From the IMG/VR virus record IMGVR_UViG_3300020200_002063, positions 1 to 20,323 of that record: DNA of 20,323 nucleotides; one strand, 5' to 3'. The position numbers and the translations under genes are program-made. Positions within the stretch are counted from its first letter, which is position 1. Every line of letters begins with the position of its first letter. The DNA is from a virus. Below the pieces are notes generated by a model. The model was not told the DNA's origin. It made no database searches and was given only the letters and a program-made list of their open reading frames with translations. Shown one piece after another: positions 1,861 to 20,323 of this stretch.

Positions 1861-2084
1861 TGGCCGAGGCATCGTTCGGGCAGCACGTCCGCCGGGTGGA
1901 CCGGCTCTGCCTCTGCGGCGGCATCGAGCGCGAGCACGTCGTCCTGGGCAACCGCGGGCAGGGGTGCTCGCACCTCGGATTCGATGCCGAGACCGCGCCG
2001 GACGGCCGCTTCACGAGCCTCACGGCGAAGTGCCCGTGCCGGAAGTTCAAGAACACCGGGCTTACGAGGACGGTGGGGGCGTGA
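1860..2084 (+). CDS. Small Cys/His (probable zinc-binding) protein, 74 aa, copy 1 of 3
   Basis: The protein has the ligand pattern CLCGG...H (residues about 17-26), then GCSHLGF and KCPCRKF near the C-terminus. It shares the layout 'C-x-C, His, Cys, then C-x-C-x-x-F' with the products at 5496-5675 and 5999-6172. Such short proteins are common in phage accessory regions, and their roles are mostly unknown. They probably bind one zinc ion and act as adaptors or nucleic-acid-binding modules. ATG 1860 overlaps the previous stop (TGATG), and its own TGA at 2082-2084 overlaps the GTG start of the first methyltransferase, so translation looks coupled. An in-frame upstream ATG at 1845 lies inside the previous gene and is less likely. 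Confidence 0.75.
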   Translation: MAEASFGQHVRRVDRLCLCGGIEREHVVLGNRGQGCSHLGFDAETAPDGRFTSLTAKCPCRKFKNTGLTRTVGA

Positions 2085-3424
2085 CGCGAGGCGTGATGCC
2101 CCACGGCAAGGACGCCGCGTTCACCACCCCATCGGTAACGGTGTATCAAGGCGACGTGCTGGACGTGCTGCGCGACCTTCCCGACGAGAGCGTGGATTGC
2201 GTGGTGACCAGTCCTCCATATTGGGGACTCCGCGACTACGGCACTGCGAAATGGTCGGGCGGCGATCCTGAGTGCAAGCACGCGATAGGGCGAATGATGG
2301 GGAACGCGAACAAGGGCCACGTTCGGCAGGTGCTCGATGGGGACCGGGATACGTGTCGCTGCGGCGCTTCTCGCGTTGACTCACAGATCGGCCTAGAGCG
2401 CACCCCTTCGGAATACGTGGAGAAGATGGTCGCGGTGTTCCGCGAGGTGCGCCGGGTGTTGAGTGGCCGGGGAACGTTGTGGCTGAACCTGGGCGATAGT
2501 TACGCCGCGCAGGGTGGTGGAAAATCCGAAGGCCAGTATGTCGAGAAGCGGGTATCGACTTGGCAGAAGCCGCGGAGTGTTCCGGGGGGCCTCAAACCCA
2601 AAGACCTTGTGGGCATTCCGTGGCGCGTGGCGTTCGCTCTCCAGGCTGACGGCTGGTACTTGCGCTCCGACATTATCTGGGCGAAGCCGAATCCAATGCC
2701 CGAGAGCGTCACCGACCGCCCGACCAAGAGCCATGAGTACATCTACCTCCTGAGCAAGAATGAACGCTACTACTACGATGCGGATGCGATCCGGGAGGAT
2801 GCGGTAACGAATGGTCTAAATGGCGGTGCATACTCCCCTCCAGGTCAGCCTCCTCATAGCAACGCCCGAAAAAGCGTGGCCCGCGGCGACTTCAACGGCA
2901 AGACCAACGCGCTTCCTGGCCGCGAGGCGTTCCGCGCTGTTACGTCATTTCGCAACGCCCGCTCCGTCTGGACTATCGCCACGACGCCGTACCCCGAGGC
3001 CCATTTCGCAGTGTTCCCCCGAGAACTACCGGAGCGAGCGATCAAGGCCGGATGCCCGGAGCGGGTTTGCGAAACGTGCGGGAAGCCGAGCGAGAGGATC
3101 GTAGAGAGAGAGCGCGTTCCGCTGCAACGCACGTACAGAGGTGCGGTTCAGACCGTGGAGACGATGACGCCGCAGGGTGTTCGTTGGGGTGGCGACGGGG
3201 TACCGTCACGCATCGCTTCAACGACTACCGGCTGGACTGATTGTGGCCACGGCACTTGGCGTCCCGGAATCGTCCTCGACCCGTTCGCTGGCAGCGGCAC
3301 CACGCTTGCCGTGGCCCGCGACCTTGCCCGCAAGTCCATCGGCATTGAGTTGAATCCCGAGTACGTGCGGCTCATCGAGCGGCGCGTGGCGCAACTCGCG
3401 CTGGACTTGGTGGTGAAGGAGTGA
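2081..3424 (+). CDS. DNA methyltransferase, N4-C/N6-A beta class (SPPYW type), 447 aa
   Basis: A SAM-dependent DNA base methyltransferase of the N6_N4_Mtase family. Motif order is that of the beta class: catalytic motif IV first (TSPPYWGLRDYG, SPPYW at residues 44-48), SAM-binding motif I last (VLDPFAGSGTT, then SIGIELNPEYVRLIERRV). SPPY is often linked to N4-cytosine methylation, but the base cannot be settled from sequence. The central part has YIYLLSKNERYYYDADAIRE, usual in phage-borne members. Before motif I a CETCGKP segment and a later DCGHG form a likely zinc knuckle. GTG 2081 overlaps the preceding stop (GTGA); ATG 2096 is an in-frame alternative. Third positions are less GC-rich than in the late genes, suggesting acquisition from elsewhere. 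No cognate nuclease is seen, so it is probably an orphan that guards phage DNA against restriction. Confidence 0.93.
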   Translation: MTRGVMPHGKDAAFTTPSVTVYQGDVLDVLRDLPDESVDCVVTSPPYWGLRDYGTAKWSGGDPECKHAIGRMMGNANKGHVRQVLDGDRDTCRCGASRVDSQIGLERTPSEYVEKMVAVFREVRRVLSGRGTLWLNLGDSYAAQGGGKSEGQYVEKRVSTWQKPRSVPGGLKPKDLVGIPWRVAFALQADGWYLRSDIIWAKPNPMPESVTDRPTKSHEYIYLLSKNERYYYDADAIREDAVTNGLNGGAYSPPGQPPHSNARKSVARGDFNGKTNALPGREAFRAVTSFRNARSVWTIATTPYPEAHFAVFPRELPERAIKAGCPERVCETCGKPSERIVERERVPLQRTYRGAVQTVETMTPQGVRWGGDGVPSRIASTTTGWTDCGHGTWRPGIVLDPFAGSGTTLAVARDLARKSIGIELNPEYVRLIERRVAQLALDLVVKE

Positions 3425-4584
3425 GTTCGCCCGTAACCGTTCACCGTGGCGATTGCATCGAGGTCATGCGGGCGATGCCCGAGAACAGCGTCGACGCAGT
3501 CGTGACCGACCCGCCGTACGAGTTGGCCTTTATGGGCCGTTCCTGGGATCAGGCGGGCGTAGCCTTTGACCCTGCAACGTGGGCCGAAGCCCTCCGAGTC
3601 CTCAAACCTGGCGGGCATCTGCTCGCCTTTGGCGGCACCCGCACCTATCACCGAATGACCTGTGCCATCGAGGATGCGGGGTTCGAGGTGCGCGACTGCC
3701 TCGCGTGGATGTACGGCTCCGGCTTCCCCAAGTCCCTCGACGTGAGCAAGGCGATCGACAGGGCAGCGGGAGCGAAGCGGGAAGTAGTTGCTGAGCGCCC
3801 CGCAAGCAAGGCATCTGTGGCATGGAGAGAACGAGAGGGCCGTTCTGATCGTCTGACCCCCGCGCCTATTACTGCCCCTGCCACTGACGACGCCCAACGC
3901 TGGCAAGGATGGGGTACGGCGCTGAAGCCCGCATTTGAGCCAATCGTGCTCGCCCGCAAGCCACTCACCGGCACGGTTGCCCAGAACGTGCTCGCCCACG
4001 GCACCGGGGCGCTCAACGTCGACGGAAGTCGGATCGGTACGGCAGATGGTCATGGCGGCGGGGCTAAGGCGAGTGGCGGCTTCGTATCCGGGTACGAGCG
4101 GGGCGACGGATTCTCGGCCTCGGCGGTGGGCCGCTGGCCCGCCAACGTCGTATTGGACGAGGCGGCGGCGGCGATGCTCGATCAGGCGAGCGGCGAGCGT
4201 ACGAGCGGCAAGGTGAAACCGCACCACCGCAGTCACGGCAAGGCCGACGATCTGCGTTATGGCAAGTTCCGCGGCGACATTCCGCTAGTTGGATACGGTG
4301 ATACCGGCGGTGCCTCTCGATTCTTCTACACCGCGAAAGCCGACGCAGAGGACCGAGGCCCGGAGAATCATCATCCGACCGTGAAGCCTGTATCGCTCAT
4401 GGCGTGGCTGGTGAAACTCGTCACGCCCCCCGGCGGCGTGGTGCTCGACCCCTTCGCCGGATCGGGCTCCACGCTCATCGCCGCACGCCACCACGGATTC
4501 CAGGCCATCGGCATTGAGCGGGAGGCGGAGTACGTGGCAATCATCGAACGACGCTTCTGGCCCGAGACGGTCACGGTCCTGTGA
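3421..4584 (+). CDS. DNA adenine methyltransferase, beta class (DPPY type), 387 aa
   Basis: The second methyltransferase of the block. Motif IV is VVTDPPYELAFMGRSWD (DPPY at residues 30-33), followed by FDPATWAEALRVLKPGGHLL, AFGGTRTYHRM and the conserved WMYGSGFPKSLDVSKAID segment. The C-terminal part carries FFYTAKADAEDR, NHHPTVKPVSLMAWLVKL and motif I as LDPFAGSGSTLIAARHHGF, then AIGIEREAEYVAIIERRF. This arrangement is that of widespread phage and prophage m6A methyltransferases. The specificity region is expected between about residues 90 and 290. GTG 3421 overlaps the stop of the previous methyltransferase (GTGA), so the two are translationally coupled. It probably acts with its neighbours to mark phage DNA at different target sites; the targets cannot be read from sequence. 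Confidence 0.93.
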   Translation: MSSPVTVHRGDCIEVMRAMPENSVDAVVTDPPYELAFMGRSWDQAGVAFDPATWAEALRVLKPGGHLLAFGGTRTYHRMTCAIEDAGFEVRDCLAWMYGSGFPKSLDVSKAIDRAAGAKREVVAERPASKASVAWREREGRSDRLTPAPITAPATDDAQRWQGWGTALKPAFEPIVLARKPLTGTVAQNVLAHGTGALNVDGSRIGTADGHGGGAKASGGFVSGYERGDGFSASAVGRWPANVVLDEAAAAMLDQASGERTSGKVKPHHRSHGKADDLRYGKFRGDIPLVGYGDTGGASRFFYTAKADAEDRGPENHHPTVKPVSLMAWLVKLVTPPGGVVLDPFAGSGSTLIAARHHGFQAIGIEREAEYVAIIERRFWPETVTVL

Positions 4585-4706
4585 GTCACCTGAAACCTAC
4601 GAACGCGCCCGCCTCGATCCCGCACCTGACCCTTATGGAACGTGGTCCGCTCCTCGACTCGGACGGTTGGGACGACTGCACCTATGCCCTATGGAGCAAG
4701 TGGTGA
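4581..4706 (+). CDS. Possible small protein, 41 aa, linking two methyltransferase genes
   Basis: A short frame begins at GTG 4581 overlapping the previous stop (GTGA) and ends at TGA 4704-4706, which in turn overlaps the GTG start of the third methyltransferase. The product begins VSHLKPTNAP and ends LLDSDGWDDCTYALWSKW. I do not recognise it. The double GTGA overlap matches the way real genes are joined throughout this window, and a frame kept open exactly between two overlaps argues for use, at least as a translational bridge. It is too short for coding statistics. Confidence 0.4.
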   Translation: MSHLKPTNAPASIPHLTLMERGPLLDSDGWDDCTYALWSKW

Positions 4707-5407
4707 AGCCGTACTACGAGCACGGCGGCATCACGATCTATCGGGGGGATTCTCGGGAACTGCTGGTTGATTTGGCAATAGCGGGGCCGGAGGTGTGGTT
4801 GACCGACCCGCCGTATTCGTCTGGGGGATTTCAAGAGGCGGGCAGGCTTTCGGGAAGCATTGGCAAAATGGGAGAGTTGTCTAAGGATGACCGAATCCCC
4901 GCAGACACGTTATCGACTCGGGGATACATGAATCTCATGCGTGAAGTGCTGCGCCATTCTCGGTCGGTGTTGGAGATCGGCGTGTTCACCGATTGGCGGA
5001 TGTGGGTCAATACGGCTGACGCTCTTGAATATGCGGGGTTCGCCCTACGAGCGATGGTCGTGTGGTCGAAGGGAAATAACGGGATCGGTCGCCCGTGGCG
5101 CAACCAGCACGAGCTTCTTGCGTTTGGGATGAGACTGTCGGCCGAGAAAGACCGTATTGCCAAGCACGGCAACGTTATCGATTGTGGCAGGAGTGGCAAT
5201 CAGTGGCATCCAACGGAGAAGCCGCTGGAACTCGTTACCAAGATTCTCGACAACATGATTCCGGGGGTTGTGGTCGATCCGTTTATGGGGAGCGGCACGA
5301 CCCTAGTTGCGGCAAAGGCGCTCGGCCGCAAGGCAATCGGAATCGAGATCGAGGAACGCTATTGCGAGATCGCCGCGCAGCGCCTTAGTCAAGAGGTGCT
5401 TTTGTGA
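4703..5407 (+). CDS. DNA adenine methyltransferase, beta class, compact, 234 aa
   Basis: The third and smallest methyltransferase. It opens with VKPYYEHGGITIYRGDSREL, the standard N-terminus of phage m6A enzymes. Motif IV is VWLTDPPYSSGGF (DPPY at residues 35-38). A HPTEKPLELVTKIL segment (168-181) is followed by motif I VVVDPFMGSGTTLVAAKALG (188-207) and AIGIEIEERYCEIAAQRL. The VFTDWRMWVNTADALEYAGF block lies between. GTG 4703 is preferred over ATG 4691 because GGAG at 4693-4696 sits 6 nt upstream, the protein then begins at the conserved point, and the GTG overlaps the stop of the short frame before it. The gene ends in TTTTGTGA, where the next GTG overlaps. A short enzyme with little room for a target-recognition domain probably recognises a short site; that is inference. 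Confidence 0.93.
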   Translation: MKPYYEHGGITIYRGDSRELLVDLAIAGPEVWLTDPPYSSGGFQEAGRLSGSIGKMGELSKDDRIPADTLSTRGYMNLMREVLRHSRSVLEIGVFTDWRMWVNTADALEYAGFALRAMVVWSKGNNGIGRPWRNQHELLAFGMRLSAEKDRIAKHGNVIDCGRSGNQWHPTEKPLELVTKILDNMIPGVVVDPFMGSGTTLVAAKALGRKAIGIEIEERYCEIAAQRLSQEVLL

Positions 5408-5998: not shown

Positions 5999-6172
5999 GT
6001 GAACCACTGCATCTGCGTCCATTCCAGAGCGATGCACCACGACATCCCGCCCGCGTCGTGCGCGTACCCGGACTGCCGGTGCAAGCAGTTCTCGCGCCGG
6101 GAGCCGGACACCCTTGGCGAGGCGCGCGAGATCGAGGACGAGCGCAAGGCCGAGGGGGAGGCGCGGCCGTGA
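5999..6172 (+). CDS. Small Cys/His (probable zinc-binding) protein, 57 aa, copy 3 of 3
   Basis: The third member of the family: CICVHSRAMHHD (residues 4-15), then SCAYPDCRCKQF (20-31), keeping the C-x-C, double His and C-x4-C-x-C-x2-F spacing of the copy at 5496. A charged tail EAREIEDERKAEGEARP follows. The start is GTG 5999. A strong purine stretch, GGGAGAGAGG (5977-5986), lies 12 nt upstream, longer than ideal, but no better start codon exists in this frame. The TGA at 6170-6172 overlaps the GTG of the NADAR gene. The three copies differ enough in spacer and tail to be old paralogs or independent acquisitions, not a fresh duplication. Confidence 0.75.
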   Translation: MNHCICVHSRAMHHDIPPASCAYPDCRCKQFSRREPDTLGEAREIEDERKAEGEARP

Positions 6173-6621
6173 GGCTGATCAACCGCTTCGACGGCACCGA
6201 GTACGACTTCCTCTCGAACTTCCACCCGAGCCCGATCTCCCTGTACGGCCGGGTGTACCCGACGGTGGAGCACGCATACCAGGCAGCGAAGGCGATCACG
6301 CTGGAAGAGTCTGATTACGTCGGCTCCGCCGATACGCCGGGCCAGGCCAAGAGACGCGGCAACCATGTGATCGCCATGCGCACCGATTGGGACGACGTGA
6401 AGTTCGACGTCATGCGGCTGCTCATCGCATTGAAGTTCAAGCGAGGCTCGGACCTCGCGGAGCGGCTCCTCTGCACCGAGAGCGCCGTGCTCATCGAGGG
6501 CAACGATTGGGGCGACCAGGTGTGGGGCGTCGCAGATGGTAGCGGAGAGAATTGGCTGGGTCGAATCCTCATGGAGCGCCGGTCCGCGCTCCAGTCCTTG
6601 CACCTCACTGGGAAGCGGTGA
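6169..6621 (+). CDS. NADAR-family hydrolase (YbiA-like), 150 aa
   Basis: The protein matches the NADAR fold along its whole length: FLSNFHPSPISLYGRVYPTV (residues 14-33) and EHAYQAAKA (34-42), then TPGQAKRRG (56-64), MRTDWDDVKFDVM (70-82), LKFKRGSDLAERLLCTE (88-104), LIEGNDWGDQVWGV (108-121) and ENWLGRILMERR (127-138). The family cleaves N-glycosidic bonds. YbiA acts on riboflavin-pathway intermediates, and some members remove ADP-ribose from guanine bases, opposing DarT-type toxins. Length is normal and the key blocks are intact, so it is probably active. GTG 6169 overlaps the upstream stop (GTGA). No toxin is adjacent, so it may be a free-standing counter-defence or NAD-metabolism gene; see the ART-like domain in the giant protein. 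Confidence 0.92.
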   Translation: MRLINRFDGTEYDFLSNFHPSPISLYGRVYPTVEHAYQAAKAITLEESDYVGSADTPGQAKRRGNHVIAMRTDWDDVKFDVMRLLIALKFKRGSDLAERLLCTESAVLIEGNDWGDQVWGVADGSGENWLGRILMERRSALQSLHLTGKR

Positions 6622-12166: not shown

Positions 12167-12222
12167 ACCTCACCACCATGCGCACCCTGATCGCGTTCCG
12201 CGCGGGCTGGGGCAGCGAGTGA
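12163..12222 (+). CDS. Possible 19-aa coupling frame between TerL and portal
   Basis: ATG 12163 overlaps the TerL stop (ATGA) and the frame ends at TGA 12220-12222, overlapping the portal GTG (GTGA). The peptide is MNLTTMRTLIAFRAGWGSE. It may simply let ribosomes travel from TerL to portal without dissociating. It is too short to judge as a functional protein. Confidence 0.3.
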   Translation: MNLTTMRTLIAFRAGWGSE

Positions 12223-14249
12223 GCACGATCTACAAGGGCGCACGGCCCACGACTTACGAGCAGTACCAGCGCACGCGCTACCGGGGCGTGCACGACGCCG
12301 TCACCGCCATGACGACGATGAGCGAGCCGCTCCATCGCCGCGGGGGCGGGGGCGACGGGGTCGCGGGGGCGATGTCCTTCGCCGAACTTCTCGACCTGTA
12401 CAAGCAGTTCGAGTCGTACTGGACCCCGGTGCACGCCGAGCAGGAGATCGACCGGCGCATCTTCAACCTCGCGCAACAGGTGAACGTGCCCGACGGCTAC
12501 AACGTCGTGCGCCCCTCGACGGGCAACAGCGTGATCCTCACGCTCGCCGACCACGTCGCGGGCGACCGGCCGATGTTCAAGGTCCCCGAGCAGAACCTGT
12601 CGCTCAAGGCCGCGCGCAACTCGGAGCACATCGAGAAGGGACTCCAGGCGGCGATCGACAAGTTCACCGGGAACCTGCCGAACAACCCTGTTCGCACGAT
12701 GGTGGTGAACTTCGGGTGGGCGGGCATGGCCGTCTCGCAGGGCCCGATCTTCCTCCCTGAACTGTGGGGCTACGAGCCCGAGCGCAAGTTCTTCAAGTCC
12801 GAGGAGGAGTACGAGGAGGCGCTCGGCGACTACCAGGCGAATAAGCGCCTCCAGTGGCCGTTCTGGTGGCGGATGGTGGACCCGCGCTACTCCTTCCCCG
12901 ACCCCGGCACCACGGGCAAGCAGATGGTGATGGTCTCGTACGATCGGACCGTCGCCTCGATCAAGGCGCAGTTCCCCGAGTGGAGCGGCCGGAAGACGAA
13001 CTCGTACGAGGAGTGGCCGATCCAGCAGCGGCTGCGCTGGCTGGAGGCGTGGGACTGCACGCACCGCTACTACACGGTGGGCTATCAGACGGACGGCGAG
13101 ATCATCGACGTGGCGCGCCACCGCTACGTCAAGCCGCCGTTCCAGATCAGGGCCGCGGGCTTCGGCGACGAGACCGGCGAGACGTTCGAGCAGTTCCGCT
13201 CGCTGATCTTCCCGGCGCGCTCGCTGATCAACCAGGAGATCAGGGTTCTCACGCAGTTGGACGCCGTCATGCGGAACGCCGCCTGGACGCAGATGCTGAC
13301 GCCCGAGGGCTCGAACTTCACGCAACTCATGCCCGGCACCGTGACCCCGATGAAGCGCGAGGACATCGACCTCACCCGGCCCGTCACCGAACTCCGGGGC
13401 GAGGTGGTGCAGGCGCTGCTCCAGGAGCACGAGATCATCTCGAACGGGATCGAGGAGGCCACCTACCCGAGCGTGGTCCGCGGCGTGCGAACGAAGGGCG
13501 TAAGCTCGGGCTACGGGCAGAACTCGCTCGCCGCGCTCGGCAAGATCAAGTTCGGCTCCGTCGCCGGGCAGACGGCGTCTCTGCTCCAGGAGTGGGGCGC
13601 GGACTTCCTGCGGTGCGTCGAGCGGGTCGTGGAGGAGCCGCTCCCCATCTGGGGCCCGAACGCCGCGAAGGGCTTTGACGACTTCGCGCTCAAGCCGAAG
13701 GACATCAACGGCTACTACTACTGCCTGGTCACGCTCAACCCGAAACTGCCGATCGACCGGGCGAACGAAATCCAGGTGGGCTCGGTCCTCTACAATAACG
13801 GCGAGGGCGTGATCGACTCGGACACGTACCTGTCCGACTTCGCGGGCTACGAGCAGCCCGAGGAGATGCGTATTCGCGTGATGCGTGACCGGATCATGCG
13901 CCTGCCCCAGGTGCAGCAGGTGATGATGCTCGCGGCGCTGGACGAGACCGGGATGCTCGACTTCCTGGTCGAGGCGGCGCGCAAGATCGGCATGGAGCCG
14001 GGCCAGGTGCTCGCCTCGCTTGGCCTGCTCCAAGCACCCCAGCAGGCTCCGGTTGGCCCCGGAGGCGGCGCGCCCGGAGGGGGCGGGGCGGCCTCCCTCT
14101 CCGGTGCGCGCATGAACCCCGGGCCGAGCGCCCAGGCCGAGCCCATGCCCGGCGGTATCAACTCGGTCGCGCAGCCCATGAGCCAGGCCGAGGCCGCGGC
14201 TGGGGCGGGCGTCCCGGGCCCCGGCGGCGTGTCCGGTGGGTACACCTGA
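12219..14249 (+). CDS. Portal protein, 676 aa
   Basis: The dodecameric vertex through which DNA enters and leaves the head, and onto which TerL docks. Size and position after TerL are typical. The N-terminus has LLDLYKQFESYWTPVHAEQE (residues about 55-75); the wing/stem region includes WWRMVDPRYSFPDPG and RYVKPPFQIRAAGFGDETG. The helical core has EHEIISNGIEEATYPSVVRG and GQTASLLQEWGADFLRCVER, and the end of the folded part has RIMRLPQVQQVMMLAALDET. The last 70 residues are Gly/Pro/Ala-rich and probably disordered. I see no fused protease or head-morphogenesis domain. GTG 12219 overlaps the 19-aa frame. The call rests on context plus these features; the protein is divergent. Confidence 0.82.
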   Translation: MSTIYKGARPTTYEQYQRTRYRGVHDAVTAMTTMSEPLHRRGGGGDGVAGAMSFAELLDLYKQFESYWTPVHAEQEIDRRIFNLAQQVNVPDGYNVVRPSTGNSVILTLADHVAGDRPMFKVPEQNLSLKAARNSEHIEKGLQAAIDKFTGNLPNNPVRTMVVNFGWAGMAVSQGPIFLPELWGYEPERKFFKSEEEYEEALGDYQANKRLQWPFWWRMVDPRYSFPDPGTTGKQMVMVSYDRTVASIKAQFPEWSGRKTNSYEEWPIQQRLRWLEAWDCTHRYYTVGYQTDGEIIDVARHRYVKPPFQIRAAGFGDETGETFEQFRSLIFPARSLINQEIRVLTQLDAVMRNAAWTQMLTPEGSNFTQLMPGTVTPMKREDIDLTRPVTELRGEVVQALLQEHEIISNGIEEATYPSVVRGVRTKGVSSGYGQNSLAALGKIKFGSVAGQTASLLQEWGADFLRCVERVVEEPLPIWGPNAAKGFDDFALKPKDINGYYYCLVTLNPKLPIDRANEIQVGSVLYNNGEGVIDSDTYLSDFAGYEQPEEMRIRVMRDRIMRLPQVQQVMMLAALDETGMLDFLVEAARKIGMEPGQVLASLGLLQAPQQAPVGPGGGAPGGGGAASLSGARMNPGPSAQAEPMPGGINSVAQPMSQAEAAAGAGVPGPGGVSGGYT

Positions 14250-16570: not shown

Positions 16571-19500
16571 GTGCCGCGCACCGCCGAGGAGCAGCGGGGA
16601 CCGAAGCGACCGCCCCGGCTTCCGCGCGACATCGAGATCGGCATGGGGACGCCCGTGAGCAGCGCCGTCGGGGTCTCACCGCATCCGCAGCCCCCGGGCC
16701 CGCTCGACTTCCTTGAGGGAACCCCCGTCTCGGGGGTGTTGGACTGGATCACCCGCGAGGCGCCGCGCCGCGCTCGGGGTGAGCCGGGTGCGCTCCCCGG
16801 CTCGGTCGAGCCCCTGCCGGTCCTCGGCACCGAAAAGTCCGGTATCCCGGACCTCATGCACTTGATCACGGCGCGGCAACGATGGACCCAGGCGGCGATG
16901 CAGAATCCGCCGTTGCCGCGCGAGGGTATGTCGGACGCCGAGATCGAACGGCGCCGTGAACTTGTGGAGCAGGGCCTGTCGATAGACGATGCGGGCCGCC
17001 GGGCGCGCCTGGAGACCGCCGGCCGGGCGTTGAAGGGGCTGGGCGAGTTGGGCACCGGGCTGGTGGGCGGCACTGCGCTCACGTTGTCAGCGTTTACCCG
17101 CGGGGAGGTCCAGAGGCGGCTGGACCCGGACGCCTGGGTGGAGAACATCCGCCGCGGAGGGCAACGGCTGCCGGAAGGCAGCATGGGGCGTTCGATGGTC
17201 GATCTCGGCGTGCCGGATGTCGGCGCCTTTTTCGCCCTCTCAGCCCCCGTACGGGCCGCCCGGGCCGCAGCGCGGTCCCTCGCGCTCACCGAGGGCTACC
17301 GCCTCTCCTTGGCCACGGAGACCCTGACCGACGCCGTCCGAAGCGGGAGGCCCTACAGGGAGGCGTTGGAGGAGACCGCGGCCCGGCACCCGCGCGTGGA
17401 CATCGGCGACTTGGCGGTCGAGTACGCGCGCCGCGCCTCTGGGGGTGCTGGTCGATCACCTGGTACGTACGTGCCCTCGGTGCCCGGCTCCACCAAAACC
17501 GTCCCCGTCCTTGTCAACAGCGAACGGTTGCCTGAGCCGTTGCCTGAGCCGTTGCCTGAGCCGTCGATCATGCCCGAGGAGATCACCCAGCGCATGAAGG
17601 ACGCGGGCTACTCGCGCATCCTCATCGCCCCCGGCGCCTCGGCCACCCGTGCGCCCGAGTACGCCGCCGAGGTGGAGCGGGCGCTCGCGCAGGCCGCCGA
17701 CCGCGAGACGGCGCTGCTCAAGGGCAACGCGCGATTTGTGGGCGATGAGGATGCGCGAGTAGCCCGCGTCCTTCACGGGAGAAGGCCTCCTCCACAAGAG
17801 GAGGCCTTCTCCCGTACGAAACCCACGCCGTGGGCGGTCCGCATGGAGCCCGAGGGCGTGCTCGCCGCCGAGGGTCGCGGCATGGTGATCGCGCCGTCCG
17901 GCCAGATGTACGCGGACCGCCTCCCTGGCACCACGCCGTACGACATGCTGGTCAAGATCACGGACAAGGGCTACCCGTCGCGCATGGTCGTGGACGCGGA
18001 CAGGGTGCGGGCCCGCTCGTCCCTTGGCAACCTCTCCCGGTACAACATCGCGCACCGAGCCTCGATCAACACGGGCGCCGGGGCGCTCCCGGAGGGGCTC
18101 CGCGTGAACTACCGAGCGGACGCCGCCTCGATGGCGTCCGCTCGGCGCGAACTTCTGCGTGAGGCGTTCGAGGACAACGCTGGTGCGTTCGGGCGCACCG
18201 GACTGGTCACGGTCGAGGTAGATCGGCAGCAGTTGTCGCGCGCCTTCGGCGACACGCGGCGCACGCTGCGGGTGAACGTCGTGGGCCGCCCGACGGTCGC
18301 GCAGATGGACGCGATCGAGCGCATCGTGCTGCACGCCTCCACCGCCGAGACGCGCGGCATCCCGATCGACCTGGAGTGGCGCGTGGTCGGCCTCGGCAAA
18401 GGGAGCGGCGGCCAGTTCACCGAGATCGCCAGCGAGGCGCTCGGTGGAGTGAAGCGCGGCCGGGTCACGGTGTCCCCGGAGGAGGGGCCGTCGATCTTCG
18501 AGAAGTTCCGCGCGCTGAGCGCGGCGGTGCGCCAGCAGGGCGACATGGCGGCGGGGCTTGACCTCCAGACGGCGATGAAGCCGGGCATGGGGCTGCGCGA
18601 TTTCAAGGAACTGGTGCCCGAGTTCCGCGATTGGGCCAAGCGTGCCGGGGTCACGATCAAGGAGGTCGGGGTCGGCAAGAGGGTCACTTCGGGCTGGGGC
18701 GCGGAGAACGACCTCGAACTCCTGGTCAAGGGTCCCGAGCGGGGTGTCGAGTGGCTCGGCGCGAAGGCCGCCGACGAGATGGGCCAGAGCGCGTTCATCG
18801 CGGTGCACCCTGGCACCAGGGACTTCGTCTCCCGGGTGACGTTCGACGCGATCCCGCGCGACCAGATGGACGCGCTCGCGAACCTAGTGAAGCCCTACCT
18901 GAACGCCCACATCATCCCGGACAAGAATGGCAACGCGGTGGGGCTCGTGGCGGTGGGGCCGCGCGGGGACGTGAGTGCCTCGACGCAACTGGTCAAGTTC
19001 CTCGCCAATCCTTCGGTCCAGGAGAGGCTCTCCAATATCAACCGGGCAGACAGCCGGGCGAAGGTGGTAGCATATGGGCGTGACGAAGCAAACAAAGCCT
19101 TCTACGAGGGACTCGGCTTCGAGTCCCGCACCTATTCGGAGGCTCTCGCCAGAGGACCTCGCGGCACTGCTGGAGGCCGCGCGAGAAGCCTTCTCGACTC
19201 CGCCGACCCCGGAGGAGTTGGCGAGGGAACGCGAACGCCTCGCCCAGGCGAAGCCGCTGGAGGAATCGGTGCTGCTTTTCCCCGACCAGGCGCGTACAGG
19301 GAATGGGTCGCCCGCAAGCAGACTCCCTACGGATACGACTGGCAGGACTCCTGGCGGCGCCAGCGTGCCGCCGAGGCCGCCGAGCGCCTAGACCCCTACC
19401 TCGGCACGGCGGACCTGTCGCTCCCCGTGGAGCAGCGCGTTGGCCTCTACAGGCGCGAGTCAGACATCCTCCGCTCGATGGTGGGCGACCTCGCCGACTA

Positions 19501-20323
19501 CGAGAAGCGGGCCCTCGCCGCGCGGTGGGGCGTGAAGGCGAAGGACCTCCGCGGCATCGAGCGCATGAGCGACGAGGCGCGGCGCGCGGGCTTCCTCGCC
19601 GATATGACCGTCGTGGAGCAGCGCATCGGACGCCCGCTCAACGGCGAGGAAATCGCGTACCTCTCCGACGTGTACGCGCTCCCGGTCGAGGGAAAGCCCT
19701 CGAAGGTCGTGGTCGATATGAAGCAGATCGTCCACGGCCAGCCCGTCGTGTTCCGCGGGTGGCACGGCACGGGCGCCTCGTTGGAAGAACTCCGCCAGGG
19801 CTTCAGAGTCCCGGCCCAGGAGGTCGGGCCGCTCTCCGGCAGCCGCGTCAACGTGATGCGCCGCGAGGGCTGGATGGGCAAGGGCGTGTACCTCACCGAC
19901 CAAAAGGACTTCGCCGGGCGGTTCGGCAAGGCGCTGTCCATCGACGCCGTCCTCCGCAAGCCGTACGTCGTCCAGGGTGGCCGGAAAATCACCTGGCCCG
20001 AGGTGCAGAAGTTTGACCCCGAGGCGCTCATGGCCCAGGGGTACGACTCGATCGTGGTGCTTGGCGGTCGGAGCCACGGCTGGAAGGGCGAGACGTTCCG
20101 CGCCGTCACCGTGTTCAACCCGAGCAACGTGTTCCCGACGCCGGGCTCCAAGTGGGTGCGGGGAGTGGGAACGTTCTTCCCACGGATACGCCGCCCTCGC
20201 CTGCGGGACTACGACTCGGCGAACCTCCCCGCGGTGGCCGCGCTCCCCGCCGGGGCGAGCGCGACGGACGAGGACCTCCCCGAGGAGGAGCGCCAGCAGC
20301 GCGCGGCGCTCGCGGGTGGGCTC
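16571..20323 (+). CDS. Giant virion-associated (polyvalent-type) protein with ART-like domain, at least 1251 aa, 3' end outside window
   Basis: One frame is open from GTG 16571 (after GGGAGGAAAC) to the window edge. Residues 1-60 are Pro/Arg-rich; about 60-310 are helical (RGGQRLPEGSMGRSMVDLGV; LALTEGYRLSLATETLTDAV); 320-331 are (LPEP)3; 342-415 hold the inverted repeat and hairpin; about 430-860 contain unrecognised alpha/beta domains (GLRDFKELVPEFRDWAKRAG; RVTSGWGAENDLELLVKGP). Residues about 1060-1180 resemble ADP-ribosyltransferases of phage polyvalent proteins: FRGWHGTG (H1065), GWMGKGVYLTDQKDFAGRFG (Y1107), AQGYDSIVVLGG, GETFRAVTVFNPSNVF (E1174). Such giant proteins are often packaged and ejected with DNA to counter host defence. 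The triad looks complete, but activity is inferred. About 854-910 is read in a frame with poor coding bias. Confidence 0.8.
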   Translation, partial: MPRTAEEQRGPKRPPRLPRDIEIGMGTPVSSAVGVSPHPQPPGPLDFLEGTPVSGVLDWITREAPRRARGEPGALPGSVEPLPVLGTEKSGIPDLMHLITARQRWTQAAMQNPPLPREGMSDAEIERRRELVEQGLSIDDAGRRARLETAGRALKGLGELGTGLVGGTALTLSAFTRGEVQRRLDPDAWVENIRRGGQRLPEGSMGRSMVDLGVPDVGAFFALSAPVRAARAAARSLALTEGYRLSLATETLTDAVRSGRPYREALEETAARHPRVDIGDLAVEYARRASGGAGRSPGTYVPSVPGSTKTVPVLVNSERLPEPLPEPLPEPSIMPEEITQRMKDAGYSRILIAPGASATRAPEYAAEVERALAQAADRETALLKGNARFVGDEDARVARVLHGRRPPPQEEAFSRTKPTPWAVRMEPEGVLAAEGRGMVIAPSGQMYADRLPGTTPYDMLVKITDKGYPSRMVVDADRVRARSSLGNLSRYNIAHRASINTGAGALPEGLRVNYRADAASMASARRELLREAFEDNAGAFGRTGLVTVEVDRQQLSRAFGDTRRTLRVNVVGRPTVAQMDAIERIVLHASTAETRGIPIDLEWRVVGLGKGSGGQFTEIASEALGGVKRGRVTVSPEEGPSIFEKFRALSAAVRQQGDMAAGLDLQTAMKPGMGLRDFKELVPEFRDWAKRAGVTIKEVGVGKRVTSGWGAENDLELLVKGPERGVEWLGAKAADEMGQSAFIAVHPGTRDFVSRVTFDAIPRDQMDALANLVKPYLNAHIIPDKNGNAVGLVAVGPRGDVSASTQLVKFLANPSVQERLSNINRADSRAKVVAYGRDEANKAFYEGLGFESRTYSEALARGPRGTAGGRARSLLDSADPGGVGEGTRTPRPGEAAGGIGAAFPRPGAYREWVARKQTPYGYDWQDSWRRQRAAEAAERLDPYLGTADLSLPVEQRVGLYRRESDILRSMVGDLADYEKRALAARWGVKAKDLRGIERMSDEARRAGFLADMTVVEQRIGRPLNGEEIAYLSDVYALPVEGKPSKVVVDMKQIVHGQPVVFRGWHGTGASLEELRQGFRVPAQEVGPLSGSRVNVMRREGWMGKGVYLTDQKDFAGRFGKALSIDAVLRKPYVVQGGRKITWPEVQKFDPEALMAQGYDSIVVLGGRSHGWKGETFRAVTVFNPSNVFPTPGSKWVRGVGTFFPRIRRPRLRDYDSANLPAVAALPAGASATDEDLPEEERQQRAALAGGL
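17528..17563 (+). repeat. Three tandem 12-bp repeats (LPEP)3
   Basis: TTGCCTGAGCCG occurs three times without interruption and in frame, encoding LPEP three times in the giant protein. The perfect copies make it a small minisatellite that could change in copy number by slippage without shifting frame. It probably forms a stiff Pro-rich spacer between domains. Confidence 0.95.
17595..17775. repeat. Perfect 36-bp inverted repeat around a 109-bp segment
   Basis: The 36 bases at 17595-17630 recur exactly as the reverse complement at 17740-17775, with 109 bp between. The left copy is in good coding context and encodes MKDAGYSRILIAP. The right copy read in the gene's frame gives DEDARVARVLHG with atypical codons. 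So the right copy looks like an inverted duplicate inserted into the gene, keeping the frame. It ends exactly where the next hairpin begins. Confidence 0.95.
17775..17815. repeat. Perfect palindromic hairpin, 18-bp stem and 5-nt loop, inside coding sequence
   Basis: ACGGGAGAAGGCCTCCTC (17775-17792) pairs fully with 17798-17815 around the loop CACAA. It shares base 17775 with the right arm of the 36-bp inverted repeat. In the giant gene's frame it encodes GRRPPPQEEAFSRT. No T-tract follows, so it is not a typical terminator. Such a stem could pause the ribosome or polymerase or be a scar of template switching. Confidence 0.95.
19074..19391 (+). CDS. Alternative-frame ORF, 105 aa, overlapping the giant gene
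   Basis: In the frame one base ahead of the giant gene, ATG 19074 has AAGGTGG about 6 nt upstream and the ORF runs to TAG 19391. Its middle part (19135-19290) encodes LSPEDLAALLEAAREAFSTP and PTPEELARERERLAQAKPLE, a convincing helical sequence. By my count its third positions are about 78% G or C, against about 50% for the giant gene's own frame there. The first 20 residues look non-coding. Either this is a nested gene, or the giant gene has gained a pair of compensating frameshifts and this is the ancestral reading. I favour the second. Confidence 0.35.
   Translation: MGVTKQTKPSTRDSASSPAPIRRLSPEDLAALLEAAREAFSTPPTPEELARERERLAQAKPLEESVLLFPDQARTGNGSPASRLPTDTTGRTPGGASVPPRPPSA

Follow-up and report, generated by a model that had tools for sequence, protein, structure and literature searches.

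A probable 57-bp templated insertion joining an inverted copy to a perfect hairpin in a long gene of an uncultivated phage

Short inverted insertions in described systems

Short template switches are established as a source of reverse-complement insertions and perfect stems (PMC8794818; PMC7954356), and an account of quasipalindromes documents such switches in E. coli (PMC7202029). In these short-range events, described by the four-point model of Loytynoja and Goldman and by the E. coli quasipalindromes, the reverse complement of nearby sequence is inserted at a point, a perfect stem can form in one event, and synthesis returns to the original strand. The window analyzed here is a complete IMG/VR record from an uncultivated virus (20,323 bases, 68% G+C) and contains a probable insertion with the same properties, each of its bases belonging to a perfect inverted copy of sequence close by. 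However, whereas the short-range switches have two joins and yield one contiguous inverted patch with four switch points, the phage insertion requires two inverted patches, drawn from two places, and has three joins; it is further set apart from that class by its occurrence, in frame, in a gene of an uncultivated phage. We therefore class it as compound: it behaves like a template switch but is not a canonical four-point one.

Three other classes bear comparison. The microhomology-mediated templated or foldback insertions that arise locally at breaks (MMBIR, alternative end joining) similarly consist of short inverted copies of the flanks, possibly several, with 0–2 nt of microhomology; in the phage, in contrast, the template of the second patch must have been intact across the insertion point and the site has suffered no deletion. 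Small inverted triplications (DUP/INV/DUP; PMC13334657) have in common with it an inverted, hairpin-forming fragment placed between direct sequence and iterative switching, but the phage insertion lacks a direct duplication and its donors measure only 22–35 nt, one of them lying 110 nt away. The inverted chimeras generated by MDA or library preparation (PMC1855051) also comprise inverted local copies with little complementarity at the joins; they usually show one join and a deletion, whereas the phage insertion returns precisely to its origin. The mechanism of insertion is an already known kind of mutation and the established picture is unchanged. What the locus would add is a fully parsed example of one replication error that endows a phage gene with a perfect hairpin and, at the same time, with a new peptide in frame. 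It also cautions that a hairpin in a viral contig may be a scar of mutation or amplification rather than an element.

Parsing the putative insertion

The repeat search recovered a perfect inverted repeat of 36 nt (17595-17630 and 17740-17775; 100% identity, 109 nt apart) and a perfect hairpin (17775-17792 and 17798-17815; 18-nt arms, 100% identity, 5-nt loop), with base 17775 common to the 36-nt repeat and the hairpin arm. This reproduces exactly the preliminary description, which had reported a 36-bp segment with an inverted copy 109 bp downstream, adjoined by an 18-bp-stem hairpin sharing its last base, and our reading of the open reading frame bears out its further claim that the insertion leaves the frame open. 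In 20 simulated versions of the window (first-order Markov), the maximum length of an inverted repeat, regardless of spacing, was 17 nt; hence, 36 nt at a spacing of 109 nt is not a chance occurrence. Apart from these two pairs, the window has no inverted repeat of at least 18 nt inside 400 bp, and a comparison set of phage or viral DNA from elsewhere (about 258 kb) yielded just one (an 18-nt pair with a 3-nt gap).

The join is placed independently by a match absent from the preliminary description: the hairpin loop, CACAA, equals the opposite strand of TTGTG at 17736-17740, which lies directly left of the insertion point and borders the left edge of the inverted copy. This match is unnecessary for hairpin formation. 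Excision of 17741-17797 (57 bp, 19 codons on the plus strand, GDEDARVARVLHGRRPPPQ) leaves a continuous site in which GCGATTTGTG is joined in frame to GAGGAGGCCTTCTCCCGT (NARFV followed by EEAFSRTKPTPW in translation). Reverse-complemented, the excised 57 bp resolve into two exact pieces of this site, viz., TTGTGGAGGAGGCCTTCTCCCGT (17736-17758 of the empty site) and GAAGGACGCGGGCTACTCGCGCATCCTCATCGCC (17596-17629). Accordingly parsed, patch 1 (17741-17775, minus orientation) is the reverse complement of 17595-17629, and patch 2 (17775-17797, minus orientation) that of 17736-17740 and 17798-17815 as joined in the putative empty site; the boundary T, base 17775, can be assigned to either, so that the patches measure 34–35 and 22–23 nt. 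The plus-strand segments around them would be original, namely the left arm that served as donor of patch 1 (17595-17630, encoding KDAGYSRILIA), the 109-bp coding spacer between donor and insertion point (17631-17739), and the right flank (17798-17815, encoding EEAFSR), which is both the donor of patch 2 and the right arm of the hairpin. The inserted residues had previously been placed at 390-415; an insertion there stands, with its boundaries moved to residues 391-409 (17741-17797), the right hairpin arm being original sequence.

The two exact inverted local copies cover 57 of the 57 inserted bases and leave none unexplained. When every 57-bp segment of the window was examined for full coverage by inverted copies of at least 8 nt drawn from surroundings within 300 bp, a single one of 19,623 passed, namely 17741-17797. 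No longer segment excised at the insertion site behaves in this way, nor does any of 30–80 bp elsewhere in the window (outside 17500-17900). The insertion point shows neither a deletion nor a target duplication.

Codon usage distinguishes the original from the copy. The 19 inserted codons rank second lowest among the 1233 19-codon windows of the gene, and their GC3 is 0.47, against 0.86 upstream and 0.88 downstream. Scored against background, the left arm has good usage (0.92 bits/codon; GC3 1.0) and its inverted copy does not (-0.04), while the codons of patch 2 (GGG AGA AGG CCT CCT CCA CAA) score -1.78 and the right flank EEAFSR 0.42 bits/codon. The poor fit of the inserted codons argues that 17740-17775 was copied from 17595-17630, the original arm, and that the insertion is foreign to the reading frame. 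Either the insertion is recent, the arms being still identical, or their identity is kept by conversion between them. Each patch alone would shift the frame, which would then run into a stop (codon 432 or 519). The frame stays open only with all 57 bp in place, the two patches summing to a multiple of 3 that adds 19 codons, which favors a single event. A two-step origin, with the hairpin first and the inverted copy later, was considered and set aside, as each step alone shifts the frame and one event is simpler.

Searches for relatives, from which very close records may be missing, were negative throughout. A related-locus search with three pieces of the gene and with the whole gene returned no relative; one with the gene at 12219-14246 and the terminase gave only two distant terminase matches, neither with a gene related to the one bearing the insertion. 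No relative of this gene was obtained by tblastn in phages and plasmids or with degenerate DNA patterns for the donor region and the putative empty site (NARFVEEAF), and when the protein was compared by tblastn with five loci carrying related terminases, the matches were at chance level only. As no relative with an empty site was found, the ancestral state is a reconstruction; the empty site that we infer is supported by the sequence, the frame, and the codon bias.

A probable complex template switch and competing origins

We consider it likely, judging from the parse, the frame, and the codon usage, that 17741-17797 is a 57-bp local templated insertion, produced by a single complex template switch while the phage DNA was being replicated or repaired. 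This was one of three options offered in the preliminary description, and it gains support from the resolution of the whole insert into two local inverted copies. That the event took place in vivo, in one step, and through polymerase switching, as well as the direction of synthesis, is what we infer. With the top strand read as the growing strand, which is a choice of direction, synthesis would arrive at GATTTGTG(G), whereupon the 3' end would move some 110 nt back, onto the opposite-sense template, and copy 34–35 nt backwards (17629 to 17595). It would then jump to a position on that template just past the insertion point, copy 22–23 nt backwards across this point (to 17736), and return to the original template exactly at the departure point. 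The outcome would be an inverted copy of upstream sequence and, right behind it, a snap-back copy of downstream sequence, so that the perfect hairpin abuts the inverted copy; because the patches total a multiple of 3, the gene would have survived. Against this reading stand the failure to find a relative with an empty site, the need for three switches (two patches and an exact return) rather than the two of the usual four-point event, and the minimal microhomology at the junctions on the top strand (2, 1, and 0 nt).

The insertion looks like a tolerated mutation, and we propose no function for it. As single-stranded RNA, 17590-17820 folds at -174.9 kcal/mol, compared to a shuffled mean of -105.7; this strong fold would follow from the insertion event and could slow translation. 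The hairpin has no T run, was not called by terminator prediction, and matched no Rfam family.

There is a minor but appreciable chance that the same insert arose in vivo through a double-strand break at the insertion point, with templated insertions copied from the flanks and closure by end joining. Yeast breaks acquire local inverted templated insertions with 0–5 nt of microhomology, including multi-piece ones (PMC11724301); the microhomologies in the phage fall in this range, and the outcome of break repair would be hard to tell by sequence from that of a replication switch. However, patch 2 runs continuously through the insertion point and hence points to an unbroken template; broken ends alone could not have served, which speaks for copying at a fork or from a sister copy.

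A similarly minor but appreciable chance attaches to a chimera formed in vitro, i.e., a switch during whole-genome amplification or library preparation that was carried into the contig. In its favor, the record is an uncultivated IMG/VR contig; over 85% of phi29 amplification chimeras are inverted, formation within one molecule is favored, and more than 70% use 2–21 nt of complementarity (PMC1855051), while T7 strand-displacement reactions form hairpin chimeras (PMC9484634). Yet in-vitro chimeras mostly have single joins with an intervening deletion, as opposed to the three joins, exact return, and absence of a deletion here; moreover, an in-frame result would be a one-in-three stroke of luck, and the assembler would have had to prefer the chimera to the normal allele.

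An improbable alternative is that the insert is a single piece, derived from a tiny circle or a tandem duplication of a local unit of about 164 bp and inserted in reverse. Read on the bottom strand, it runs from 17736-17740/17798-17814 directly into 17595-17629, which constitutes a head-to-tail junction of such a unit. Were this origin true, it would suggest that small circular or concatemeric DNA intermediates feed insertions in phage genomes.

The other two options of the preliminary description fare worse than the template switch. It is very improbable that 17631-17739 is a small invertible segment flipped between the 36-bp arms, a suggestion that found no support: such arms could recombine, and flipping would also leave the frame open, but a Pfam scan of the ten main genes of the window, a partial contig, contained no recombinase, the arms comprise a native coding segment and a poor-codon copy of it rather than two functional sites, and the hairpin would be left unexplained. 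Occasional passive recombination between the arms could still take place. Like palindromic elements of other genomes, such as those of Rickettsia, the phage hairpin is perfect and lies in frame inside a gene; nevertheless, a palindromic mobile element that captured a neighboring fragment can be rejected with near certainty, given that a search of the window allowing 3 mismatches revealed no second copy of the hairpin and that the viral or genome contigs searched held no exact match to it, that its inserted half repeats, in reverse complement, the original sequence beside it, with all 57 inserted bases, loop included, deriving from the adjacent flanks, and that there is no target duplication.

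The long gene and its neighborhood

The gene bearing the probable template-switch insertion occupies 16571-20323 on the plus strand as an open reading frame of 1251 codons that runs off the end of the contig. Residues 1035-1251 of its product (19673-20323) match ART-PolyVal (E = 0.054) and the C-terminal part encoded by the same stretch matches PARP (E = 0.24), both below the cut-off. This weak ADP-ribosyltransferase likeness would fit a phage polyvalent protein, and the product is possibly one with an ADP-ribosyltransferase-like C-terminal region. Structure predictions made without an alignment (pLDDT 34–35) were uninformative. In the same stretch of the gene as the insertion, 30 bp upstream of the donor arm, 17522-17564 carries a slippage-type repeat made up of three 12-bp units in tandem (TTGCCTGAGCCG-like), with PEPLPEPLPEP as the encoded peptide.

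Elsewhere, the window codes for a terminase large subunit (PHROG 2, E = 1.9e-29), downstream of which lie large genes without family matches, and for a DPBB (RlpA-like) protein (Pfam). A further gene, at 6058-6621, encodes a NADAR domain (Pfam, E = 1.3e-23), so that one fragment carries both an ADP-ribose-related protein and the possible ART domain. The first 5.4 kb hold four genes for N6/N4-type DNA methylases (Pfam; 1-867 on the minus strand and 1964-5407 on the plus strand), which is dense for a phage fragment of 20 kb.
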